Positions 33,001 through 37,280 of a stretch of DNA of 64,000 bases are shown in pieces. This DNA comes from Todiramphus chloris collaris. Lineage: Eukaryota; Chordata; Aves; Coraciiformes; Alcedinidae. The DNA lies in contig JANVCC010000048.1 of NCBI GenBank assembly GCA_025345505.1, positions 2,676,671 through 2,740,670 on the forward strand, written 5' to 3'. The notes below the pieces were generated by a model. It was not told the DNA's origin, made no database searches, and saw nothing but the letters and a program-made list of their open reading frames with translations. The position numbers and the translations under genes are program-made. Each line of letters starts with the position of its first letter. Position 1 is the stretch's first letter.

Positions 33001-34153
33001 GAAAATACCTGGGCTGGTGTTTCCATTTACTGCAGAAGCCCACAGCTATAAGAAACTGTAAGGAGCACATCTAGGAAGATCAGACTTTTCTAAGAGAACA
33101 ACAGCTACAAAGACAGTTAAATATATAGCATTGTCTTATCATTTGAAGCAGAAATAACAGACAAAAAAAAAAAAATAGACAGCTAAGTATTTTTTTTTCC
33201 AACAGCAGTCTAATTTGATTCAAGTAGAGTGGCTAAGGTTTAGGAGTCTATGAGCTGCAATGAGAATCTGGGCAGGTAGCATCCCTCTAGTTTGATTTTC
33301 AGTCCGTTGCCTCATGCTAGCATAGCTCTCACCCACCTCCCAGAACCTCTTCTTTTCCAGAAAGGCAGAGGATCCGGTTTTGAATATCAGCCTTTTGTAA
33401 ATCTACGTGTAACTACGGTTTCACAGCCTGTATCTCCATTTCACCACTCCTTCGAGGAACTCGAGTCATCACTTGTTCTTAGCTATGAAGTGCAAAAGGC
33501 TAGCTTGTCTTCCTGGCCTGGCTCATATACTTTATCTCTTTCTTTCTTTCGATTACTATAAAGCTATCAGTGTATATTCTAGCCCTTGGGGGAGGTGGGG
33601 GGGAATGAAAAGAAAAACAAAAAAGAAAGCAGAGACAGAAACAAAAAAAGTGAATATTCAGTATAATTGAATATTCTATACACTGCAGCCTGTCATGCGA
33701 GAAGGTTCTGTCTACGACTGCCATATGAACAGATTTTGGAAACAGAATAGAAATTCTTTTCAAAATTACTTGGGAATAGAACATTTTGTATGAAAGAGCT
33801 GTCAAAACTCTGGTTTCAAGAAGAACAGGATTCTAAGCCATAGGACTGAGAGTGATTAATTGCATCATGAAAACCAGTTGGCACTCGCCCTGGAAGGGCA
33901 CTCAGATAGTGAGGCTTCCTGGGAGGTGCTTAACCCTAGACTTTGATGTATCTGATGGCTCCTGAAAGGACTAGCTACAGACTCTGTAGTGAACCATAGC
34001 TTGTATGGTACTCTAGCTCTGCTGGAGTTACACTTCTTCCTTTGGCTGCCTCGTCTCTCAGCCCAGCTCCTGGTGCCATGTCCCCTCCTAGAGAAACTGC
34101 TATCATCTTGTATTGGTCCTCTGCCTTGGCTTGACTCCTTAGACTCAAGAATT
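30071..34153. other. Unique non-coding DNA
   Basis: No gene recognised. The part at 31310-31830 has the look of a conserved non-coding element and is listed separately. A pyrimidine-rich run lies at about 32077-32130, and short A- or T-runs occur near 33165 and 33190. The stretch just before the CR1 (about 33880-34150) is richer in G and C than its surroundings, but I recognise nothing in it. Confidence 0.5.
31310..31830. promoter_or_regulatory. Candidate conserved non-coding element (speculative)
   Basis: About 520 bp with no simple repeats, no transposon and no long frame. It has balanced composition and many sequences resembling transcription-factor sites, among them an E-box CACCTG core near 31436 and AT-rich homeodomain-like cores. 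This is the texture typical of vertebrate developmental enhancers. The call rests on texture alone, because conservation cannot be measured from one sequence. Confidence 0.2.
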
Positions 34154-34948
34154 ACAGAATCATAGAATCACACCTGGCTGGGGTTGATGACAAGAGGTCA
34201 TCTGATCCAACCCCTCTGTTCAAGCAGGGACACCTAGAGCCAGTTGCACAGGATTGTGTCCAGATGGCTTTTGAACATATCCAAGGATGGAGACTCCACA
34301 ACCTCTCTGGGCTGGTGCTTGGTCACCCTCACAGTAAGAAAGTGTTTCTTGATATTCAGAGAGAACCTTCCATGTTCCACTTCGTGCCCGTTCCCTGTGG
34401 TCCTGCCACTACCCACCATTGAAAAGAGCCTGGCTTCATTCTTTTTGCACTCTCCCTTCAGCTATCTAAATAAATTAATAAATTGCACACCCCCACAAGC
34501 CCAGCATTTTAGTCATCCTTGTGGCTCTTCCCTGGACTCTCTCCAGTATGTCCATGACTTTCCAGTATTGGGAAACCCAGAACTGGACAAAGTTGTTGCT
34601 CGAGGTGTGCCTCACTAGTACCAAGTAGATGGAAAAGGTTCCCTCCCCTTGACCTGCCTGATGCAGCCCAGCACACACAATAAGCCTTCTGTACTGCAAG
34701 AGTATGTTGCTGGCTCATGTTCAACTTGATCAAGTAAGTTCTCCATAAGCTTTCCTGCCAATCTGCTCTCCAGCTTCTCCCTAGCTGCAGGGCTTTGCTC
34801 CTCTCTCCTTGCCAAACTTCACGAAGTTCCTGTCGGCCCCTTGCTGCATCCTGCCGAGGTCTCTGGATGGCAGCACCACCCTGTCGAGGTCTCTTTGGAT
34901 GGCAGCACCATCTTGTAGATGTTTCTCTGGGTGGCAGCACCACACGGG
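34154..34948 (-). mobile_element. CR1 LINE, 5'-truncated, directly abutting a tRNA gene
   Basis: Minus-strand CR1 of about 795 bp. The tail is at 34154-34169. Going upstream on the minus strand come LPREVVESPSLDMFKSHLD, KKHFLTVRVT, a shifted ILERVQ-like segment, an LNMSQQ block with LGCIRQ, a KALQLGR block, and an ADRNFVKF segment equivalent to the usual ADRNLMKF. Several frameshifts and a small deletion interrupt the frame, so it is dead. The most 5' part (34854-34948) is a 31-32 bp unit repeated three times, each derived from the CR1 segment coding for AAIQRDLDR. The 5' truncation lies within about 5 nt of the T5 terminator of the tRNA-Gly gene, in the same orientation. Confidence 0.93.
34854..34948 (-). 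repeat. Triplicated 32-bp unit inside the CR1 5' end
   Basis: Three head-to-tail copies (34854-34884, 34885-34916, 34917-34948) share a GGTGCTGCCA core on the minus strand. Each matches the CR1 codons for AAIQRD. Copy length is 31-32 bp and identity between copies is high but not complete. They lie between the body of the CR1 and the tRNA terminator, at the very 5' end of the truncated LINE. Confidence 0.85.
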
Positions 34949-34953
34949 TGTTC

Positions 34954-34958
34954 AAAAA
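34954..34958 (-). terminator. Pol III terminator of tRNA-Gly (T5)
   Basis: Five consecutive T on the minus strand, starting after a 5-nt spacer from the tRNA discriminator base. This is a standard RNA polymerase III stop and would give a 3' trailer of about ten nucleotides. Confidence 0.85.
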
Positions 34959-34974
34959 GGAGTTGCATTGGCCG

Positions 34975-34985
34975 GGAATCGAACC
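34975..34985 (-). promoter_or_regulatory. Internal Pol III B box
   Basis: GGTTCGATTCC on the minus strand, an exact match to the GGTTCRANYCC consensus bound by TFIIIC. It forms the T-loop region of the tRNA-Gly. Confidence 0.93.
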
Positions 34986-35017
34986 CGGGTCAACTGCTTG
35001 GAAGGCAGCTATGCTCA

Positions 35018-35028
35018 CCACTATACCA
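35018..35028 (-). promoter_or_regulatory. Internal Pol III A box
   Basis: TGGTATAGTGG on the minus strand, a full match to the TRGYNNARNNG consensus, located in the D-arm of the tRNA-Gly. Confidence 0.92.
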
Positions 35029-37280
35029 CCAATGCTCTGATACATGAAACTCCATCCTTCCTTCTGCTCCAGTTTCCATCTAGTCTTGGACTAACCACCT
35101 ACTAAAAAAAAAGATTCCTGAGGGAAACATTCAAGTTTTCTCCACAGCTGTCAAAGCTACTGGAAAACTTTTGTTTGTTTGTTTGTTTTTTAAACAGTGA
35201 AAATAATAAGGTATCACTCCATGAAGTATTTCCAAAGTCATGATTTGTTTAAAAGGAATTCCAAACAAAAGGACTACATCCTTCAGAAATGGCACTGCAG
35301 ATAATAGAAAACTGGGGGAAAAGGCCAGCTAACAGCTCCAGTCTGATGAAACAAGCATCCTCCTTTCACCATCATCAGTAAAAGAAATACACTCGCCAGC
35401 ATTAACGATGATGAAACTTCTTATTTCATGTTTGAAAGGTTAGGTAGTGAAAATGATAATGATGCATGTTGTCCTTTCCCTTAGCTATTGCTTTTCTCTT
35501 CTCAGTGTCATCTAAAGAAACACAAGATCATATGGAAAATGCAGCTGAAAATAAACAGGATGGATTTACAAAAAGATGATTTTGAAAGAGGGTTACCTGA
35601 AACACAAGTTTTGAAATTTTGAATCTCAAACTTCAGTACATTTTTATCACATGATGTATGACAACAGGTTTGCTATCACAGTGGATAGAGCGAACAAACT
35701 ACTTTAGAGGGACACACTCTCAAAACCTGCATTCTGTGAGGATATCTTATGAATAAGCCAAGGCATTCTGGGGCATCAGTGAGTTGTCTTCTGAATGTAT
35801 TGCTTTTCTCAGCAAGCCTATGGATGAGTACATTTTGTGCCAGGTCTCGGTTCCTTAATGAAGACACCTTCAGGTATCTTTAAGTCTCGAGTCCTCAGTC
35901 CTAAGTTTACTGCAATGGTTGTCAGAAAAGATGTAAGACCTAATATTGGTCAGACATCCACCAATCTCCTGATTCCTGACCCTTTCTATCACTCTGTCTT
36001 CATCCGAGGAATGAATAGATCCAGAGCAGGTCCCCTAGTACTATGCATTTTTGTCCATTTTACCCAGACTCTTCTAGTGTTTTTATTGATGAAATTCTAT
36101 GCAGCCTTAGAGAAAAGTCTACAGAGCACAGTTACACCAGGATACCAAGTCTTCTCTTGCATTCCTCTCACAATTCATTTTATAAAACATCAACATCAGC
36201 CAAGATCCTGTTTGGAAGCCTCTGCATATAGGTTGTGAGTGCACACTGTTAAGTACATCTATAACTAAGATTTAACGTAGCACACTAAGAGGGCTCTGCT
36301 GAATGATGTAGTCTGTCTTCACGCGACATGTGCTGTACACGTACTGCTCTGCAAGCACACGCTTCAGTTATGTGGTGCATGCACAGCAAACCGCTTCTTT
36401 TGGCTCCAGATTTTCTGCGCACTTGTTGCAGAATCCCTTTACATGGGGCCTTGGCCCTCAGCCAGTAAGCTAGTGATTGAAGAAGATGATACCATGGGAC
36501 ACATCAAACTCATTAATCGTAATGACTTCTGAAAAATTCATACCTTATTGTAATGATTTTCATACTTTTCTTCTGATCTGTAGACACCATAAATACTTTC
36601 TAGCAAATCTGGAAAGGCATGGATAATTAATTTCAGCACAGCAACAGTTGTTTCCAACATTATTGAAGGGTATGGTATGGTTTAACAATCGTCACAAAAG
36701 ACTATTCTTTATATACTTCCCTGCAGAAATATGCTATAGAAGCTGAATATCTGTGGGCTACCATTTGAAAATCTCTACCTTACTGTTTAGGAAATTCAAA
36801 TAACTGTAGCAAAGACAGTCTGGTAGAACTGCAAACCCCCTCTGAATTGAGAAAAAAGCACTGGGTGAGGATTGTCTGCTCTGAGAAAGCTGGAAGTTGA
36901 AGTGGTTGCGCAGAACAAGACAGAGAACTGGGACTAGTTAAGGGGATCTTTGTGAAAGGCAGACACCTGGGTCTCAGTTCATAAAGCTGCTTAAACACAC
37001 ATGAGATTCCTGAAGAATTTAAGCACCCAAAGTTGCAGATAAACTCAGAGGGCTGCATTTCCAAAGTCAAAGTACTCTTATGCTGCTTAAGAAAGTCTAG
37101 AAACACTCCTGAACATCTGGAGGTGCCTGGAAATCCATTGAAATCTGACCCCAGTGTTCCAGTCCCAAATGCAAAGCCTCCTTAACTTCAGTAACTCTTC
37201 TTCTGTGTTCAGACAATACACACACATTGACAAACCAGGGGCTCTGCGTGAAATTTGTCCTGATTATTTCTTGTTTCCCG

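Follow-up and report, generated by a model that had tools for sequence, protein, structure and literature searches.

A tRNA-Gly(UCC) followed by a 5'-truncated CR1 in Todiramphus chloris collaris, a candidate template-switch chimera in a genome with U6/CR1 and U2/CR1 joins

Described chimeras and the Gly locus

Template-switch chimeras of a small RNA and a long interspersed nuclear element (LINE) are known for L1, L2 and RTE, according to PMC4476161. In the mammalian U6/L1 chimeras described there, a small nuclear RNA (snRNA) head is followed in one orientation by a 5'-truncated LINE, with the junction at the uridine run (U-run) of U6; U5/L1 joins with 3'-truncated, inverted heads are also described (36-48 nt in the inverted joins). 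Regarding birds, the same source reports a single turkey U6, truncated at its 5' end and lying near a CR1-like element, on which its authors could not conclude, and this undecided case is the only candidate small-RNA chimera of avian CR1 found in the literature, where no U6/CR1 case beyond turkey was met in a search that left most subscription journals outside and did not seek U2/CR1 by name. Background on avian CR1 is given in PMC8665684 and PMC4316615. The locus reported here lies on the minus strand of a 64,000-nt stretch of Todiramphus chloris collaris DNA (contig JANVCC010000048.1, positions 2,676,671 to 2,740,670; the window, to which all plain coordinates refer) and consists of a transfer RNA (tRNA) for glycine, anticodon UCC, followed by a 5'-truncated CR1. 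As in the U6/L1 chimeras so far as described, a small-RNA head precedes a 5'-truncated LINE in one orientation; what sets it apart from those chimeras is that CR1 takes the place of L1 and an intact tRNA that of U6. The locus is read as an old template-switch chimera made by CR1, with a probability of roughly 0.55.

By ARAGORN and by Rfam (RF00005, 63 bits) the sole tRNA of the window is the complete tRNA-Gly(UCC) at 34964..35035, which carries an A box, TGGTATAGTGG, and a B box, GGTTCGATTCC, as judged by the box consensus. Energy-based folding of the tRNA and its flanking sequence gave no cloverleaf by itself (z -0.64), so that the identity rests on the Rfam and ARAGORN matches. A 5-nt trailer, ACTCC (34963-34959), is followed by five thymidines, T5 (34958-34954), which we take to be the RNA polymerase III (Pol III) terminator and U-run of the primary pre-tRNA transcript. 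The first clear CR1-like sequence begins with GGTGCTGCC at 34941, separated from T5 by the 12 nt GAACACCCGTGT (34942..34953). These 12 nt fit a CR1 origin no better than shuffled sequence (extension of the CR1 match into them was scored equally well by 4294 of 5000 shuffles), and the gap between T5 and CR1 is 0-12 nt.

The CR1 fragment occupies 34147..34941, in the orientation of the tRNA. Using blastn, paralogous CR1 copies matched the stretch that begins near 34893 and ends at 34147-34154; a CR1 profile made from 18 copies matched 34885-34147 (E 5e-160), and the remaining part, 34941-34886, lies outside the profile match and is supported by tandem units. Identity as CR1 is given by homology to genomic CR1 copies together with the 8-nt 3' microsatellite tail (ATTCTATG ATTCTGTA). 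At the 5' edge of the CR1 a 32-nt unit stands in three tandem copies (34860..34955; 81% and 69% identity to the reference unit), the first of which gave no CR1 profile match when taken alone. Because the unit is single in seven paralogous CR1 copies compared by eye, the triplication looks local; lying right at the junction, it could conceivably be a stutter of reverse transcription or a later duplication. A sequence-only reading had described the complete minus-strand tRNA, the 5-nt spacer, T5 and a same-strand, 5'-truncated CR1 that starts within about 5 nt and runs to its normal 3' tail. Every part of this was borne out except the last distance, which is really 0-12 nt.

U6 and U2 joined to CR1

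The genome searched was the window's own assembly (GCA_025345505.1, 1.17 Gb). Rfam U6 gave 18 matches, 11 of them above the cut-off, and 17 stretches were fetched, the eighteenth match lying inside one of these; they held 100 nt upstream versus about 400 nt downstream of U6. A same-strand, 5'-truncated CR1 was found by profile downstream of U6 in 10 of the 17 (L088, L089, L090, L091, L092, L094, L095, L096, L099 and L103; E 3e-86 to 2e-14) and an opposite-strand CR1 in none. The remaining seven showed no CR1 at the threshold (L087, L093, L098, L100, L101, L102, and L097 with E 0.096). The sequence-only reading had proposed a search for U6/CR1 and further tRNA/CR1 junctions elsewhere in the genome; the former are thus plentiful, and the latter are described below. 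All ten profile matches enter CR1 at different positions (28 to 959), so that the joins are separate events. In five of them the CR1 match starts -3 to +12 nt from the end of the U-run and in the other five about 28-79 nt on; in L095 it follows a T-rich stretch, and in L096 it lies near the profile's own 5' edge. The alignments of the L099 and L103 heads cover only the final 47 and 51 nt of U6. Reverse transcription apparently ended partway along the U6 template in these two copies, and such 5'-truncated heads favour a chimera because insertion beside a gene would not readily yield them. Four U6/CR1 copies whose sequence extended to the CR1 end were inspected for target-site duplications, and none was clear.

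Regarding U2, all 12 matches were fetched (10 above the cut-off). Three of these (L111, L114, L115) start at U2 nt 1-4, end at nt 121, 92 and 78, and continue into same-strand CR1, which begins 22, 51 and 18 nt past the head by alignment and 0, 27 and -2 nt past it by envelope. In two others (L118, L121) the 5' end of a U2 head of about 40 nt abuts a CR1 of opposite orientation. Joins of both forms resemble those of L1 with U6 and U5 in PMC4476161, the heads of L118 and L121 being close to the 36-48 nt of the inverted U5/L1 joins, and these two inverted joins probably arose by twin priming by CR1. A same-strand CR1 lies about 200 nt downstream of a further copy (L110), and no CR1 was found at six of the 12. 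The frequencies for U6 (10/17) and U2 (3/12) do not differ significantly (Fisher 0.13).

Besides the order of small-RNA head and 5'-truncated LINE in one orientation, which the Gly locus displays, the U6/L1 type is marked by further small-RNA chimeras of the same LINE, and these are present for CR1 in ten U6 copies, three U2 copies and the two inverted U2 copies. The U6 and U2 copies indicate that CR1 in this lineage often joins snRNAs to itself by template switching; judging from such joins, small RNAs are probably copied by CR1 along with its own sequence in this genome. The share of CR1 copies concerned is small, since an Rfam scan of 20 CR1 loci with their flanks yielded no small RNA at gathering scores. 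If dated, the U6 and U2 copies could serve as a record of when CR1 was active in birds, in the way U6 copies do for L1 in mammals.

tRNAs with CR1 downstream

The CR1 profile was applied to the window and to 24 tRNA loci. The tally covers 38 tRNAs, from 22 loci and the window, out of a larger tRNA content of the assembly; bacterial-type loci (C618, L053, L061), overlapping loci (L018, L026, L036, L045) and two tRNA-Lys-like sequences at LTR-like (long terminal repeat-like) starts (L059, L062) were dropped before the count, and L086 and L104-L106 were examined apart from it. The RF00005 search of the assembly scored 63 of 45,664 candidates, so the count runs low, most of all for decayed tRNA/CR1 copies. 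Three independent loci carry a same-strand CR1 within about 30 nt downstream of the tRNA. Next to the Gly locus, which is counted here through its tandem units (the profile match itself begins at a distance of 79 nt), they are tRNA-Phe(GAA) at C88:4745944 with its inverted duplicate at C88:4759036, where the profile starts 22 and 17 nt past the tRNA, and tRNA-Asn(GUU) at C16:15537201, where it starts 27 nt past. Within the same 30 nt, CR1 upstream or in opposite orientation downstream was found at none of the 38 tRNAs, the nearest upstream CR1 lying 86 nt before one Phe copy. A CR1 on the other strand 171 nt upstream of tRNA-Asn, suggested by BLAST, was not confirmed by the profile. Reversed tRNA, U6 and U2 loci gave no CR1 profile match at E 0.1.

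A chance origin would place an old tRNA-Gly(UCC) gene in front of a CR1 that inserted just past the terminator, orientation and distance being accidental and the terminator intact since insertions destroying it were lost. In its favour, the tRNA is intact compared with a CR1 diverged by about 20%, it is the sole Gly(UCC) copy found in the assembly, both CR1 edges carry TTGA, and the few tRNA genes of birds (169 on average; PMC8044554) should each be well kept. The numbers speak against this account: with six CR1 copies by profile in the 64-kb window, that is, one per 22 kb per strand, about 0.05 same-strand cases within 30 nt are expected for 38 tRNAs versus the three independent loci seen (P of at least two cases 0.0013, or 0.004 at a stricter CR1 density). 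All tRNA/CR1 cases are, moreover, downstream and same-strand, and the same genome holds the many U6/CR1 and some U2/CR1 chimeras. Chance adjacency alone was set aside for the whole set, the cases being too many; for the Gly locus itself a chance insertion is rather unlikely.

A preference of CR1 for Pol III genes, placing it downstream of tRNA genes as happens with TRE3 of Dictyostelium, is improbable. The three tRNA loci with a downstream CR1 in the same orientation would suit such targeting, and TRE3, too, is a LINE downstream of a tRNA gene in the same orientation. Its targeted insertions lie 40-150 bp downstream (PMC5911963), whereas the distances here are about 0-27 nt (0-12 nt at Gly, profile starts at 17-27 nt at Phe and Asn). 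The tRNA clusters C7, C11 and C146 have no CR1 within 100 nt. The 5'-truncated U6 heads of L099 and L103 and the 3'-truncated U2 heads are copies rather than target genes, and, unlike in the TRE3 system as described, copied and truncated snRNA heads occur elsewhere in the genome.

The tRNA-Phe pair (L031/L032) bears on a third alternative, a later event (deletion or segmental duplication) that joined a distant tRNA to a CR1 of greater age. The two copies lie 13 kb apart in inverted orientation and have 260 bp in common. Shared are 52 nt of 5' flank, the tRNA and a stretch of the CR1, with sharp divergence beyond; the pair looks like a local inverted duplication that carried tRNA and CR1, which shows that rearrangements of this kind do happen. 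Later rearrangement would not favour one orientation across several loci and is the least probable of the explanations considered. The start of the Phe CR1 lies somewhere from the tRNA end to about 22 nt past it. A tRNA-Phe-like copy with several changes at C67:207739 has no CR1; a trailer common to it and the Phe pair was considered and dropped, the likeness not exceeding that to other trailers.

Three low-scoring RF00005 matches were also fetched. One, at C57:8777559 (L104), is a decayed tRNA copy, presumably Gln-like, followed by AACATTT and a same-strand CR1 (E 4e-50); a second is tRNA-Lys-like at an LTR-like start, and the third has no CR1.

Origin and standing of the Gly locus

Template switching would account for the Gly locus as follows. 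During target-primed reverse transcription the CR1 enzyme would copy the 3' part of its own RNA, switch to the 3' U-run of a pre-tRNA-Gly(UCC) in the nucleus and continue as far as the 5' end of that RNA, giving the whole tRNA, trailer, U-run and 5'-truncated CR1 in one orientation. The promoter of a tRNA gene being internal, the tRNA copy could be transcribed and would presumably be expressed, with selection keeping the tRNA intact while the CR1 part drifts. By analogy with the other joins, the Gly locus may have arisen by the same route. A chimera is the best single explanation because order and orientation are the same throughout, the join lies near the U-run, and chance gives too few cases. 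The mechanism proposed by the sequence-only reading has strong support in this genome from the U6, U2 and tRNA joins; at the Gly locus a chimera is the better reading, short of proof.

Several observations weigh against it. A CR1 start exactly at T5 is not supported by the sequence; U2, planned as a negative control since it has no U-run, is also joined to CR1; and the 30-nt limit was picked after the cases had been seen. Of the four tRNA/CR1 heads, three score as intact tRNAs, although copies dead on arrival would be expected to be decayed for the most part; the tRNA search behind this scored 63 of 45,664 candidates. The Gly tRNA is intact and the sole Gly(UCC) found, with no source gene seen. 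The TTGA at the two CR1 edges (34955-34952 and 34148-34145) would fit a target-site duplication of 3-5 bp, the peak for the CR1 clade according to PMC4245944, and hence a CR1 insertion downstream of the tRNA; a match as long was found in 922 of 1000 shuffles. Around the whole composite, the longest candidate duplication is 5 bp, a length reached by 796 of 1000 shuffles.

The 72-nt tRNA-Gly(UCC) occurs once in the assembly at up to 3 mismatches, and an A-box/B-box pattern likewise returned one Gly(UCC), the window's copy. Exact patterns of the tRNA had no match in the collections viral_contigs and genome_contigs. The same kind of A-box/B-box pattern found no usual-form bird tRNA-Asp, -Ile or -Cys in the assembly. 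A bird cannot lack these, so the assembly looks incomplete for tRNAs, and the missing source gene is weak counter-evidence for that reason. The argument that a sole Gly(UCC) must be an old essential gene was dropped as strong evidence on the same ground. Few bird tRNA genes were found in the assembly altogether, and tRNA-rich regions seem to be missing.

Compared with the majority of 20 paralogs (310 nt compared), the CR1 part shows a K80 distance of 0.202, whereas the same paralogs lie at 0.094-0.200 (median 0.148). The avian neutral rate is near 2 per billion years, which would put the age of the CR1 at the order of 100 million years; the tRNA/CR1 join should therefore be common to many birds. 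With both promoter boxes and an Rfam score of 63 bits, the tRNA appears to have been preserved during the drift of the CR1.

CR1-mobilised tRNA short interspersed elements (SINEs) of passerines, TguSINE1 and PittSINE, also combine a tRNA head with a CR1-derived tail, and a template switch to tRNA-Asp has been proposed for PittSINE (PMC5729268). As described there, they form amplified families in which a tRNA-Ile or tRNA-Asp head carries a short CR1 tail, whereas the Gly tRNA here is a single copy followed by about 800 nt of CR1. A TAGCTCAG pattern had 32 matches in the assembly and disclosed no abundant tRNA-Ile head. With the tRNA and its 5' flank as query, the assembly returned the locus itself, one tRNA-Gly(GCC) and one 46-nt flank match. 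A tRNA SINE family was rejected for the Gly locus, the tRNA copy being unique within 3 mismatches and the tRNA with its 5' flank not amplified. In the tRNA-like sequences borne by transposable elements of birds (Ottenburghs et al. 2021, as cited in PMC8044554) tRNA sequences are, as here, carried by such elements and kept by selection while the element erodes; they lie inside an amplifying element, whereas the Gly locus would be a LINE chimera from a single event.

By copying small RNAs along with itself, CR1 may occasionally give rise to a new tRNA gene. If the tRNA cases are chimeras, intact genes that bring their promoters with them were seeded by a LINE in a lineage of few tRNA genes. More tentatively, and short of even odds, CR1 template switching could be a source of working bird tRNA genes, with Gly(UCC), Phe(GAA) and Asn(GUU) descending from selected chimeras while the U6, U2 and most tRNA chimeras decayed.

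Two further observations concern the tRNA loci set apart above. The 3.4 Mb contig C618 holds many bacterial-type tRNAs, often with encoded CCA, and is probably a bacterial contaminant. At C17:11734341 (L059), C32:9533440 (L062) and C9:47255116 (L105), tRNA-Lys-like sequences ending in CCA stand a few bases before LTR-like starts (TGTCCTGG... and TGTCATGG... in L059 and L062); these we take to be, perhaps, full-length copies of a tRNA-Lys primer beside an ERVK-type LTR.
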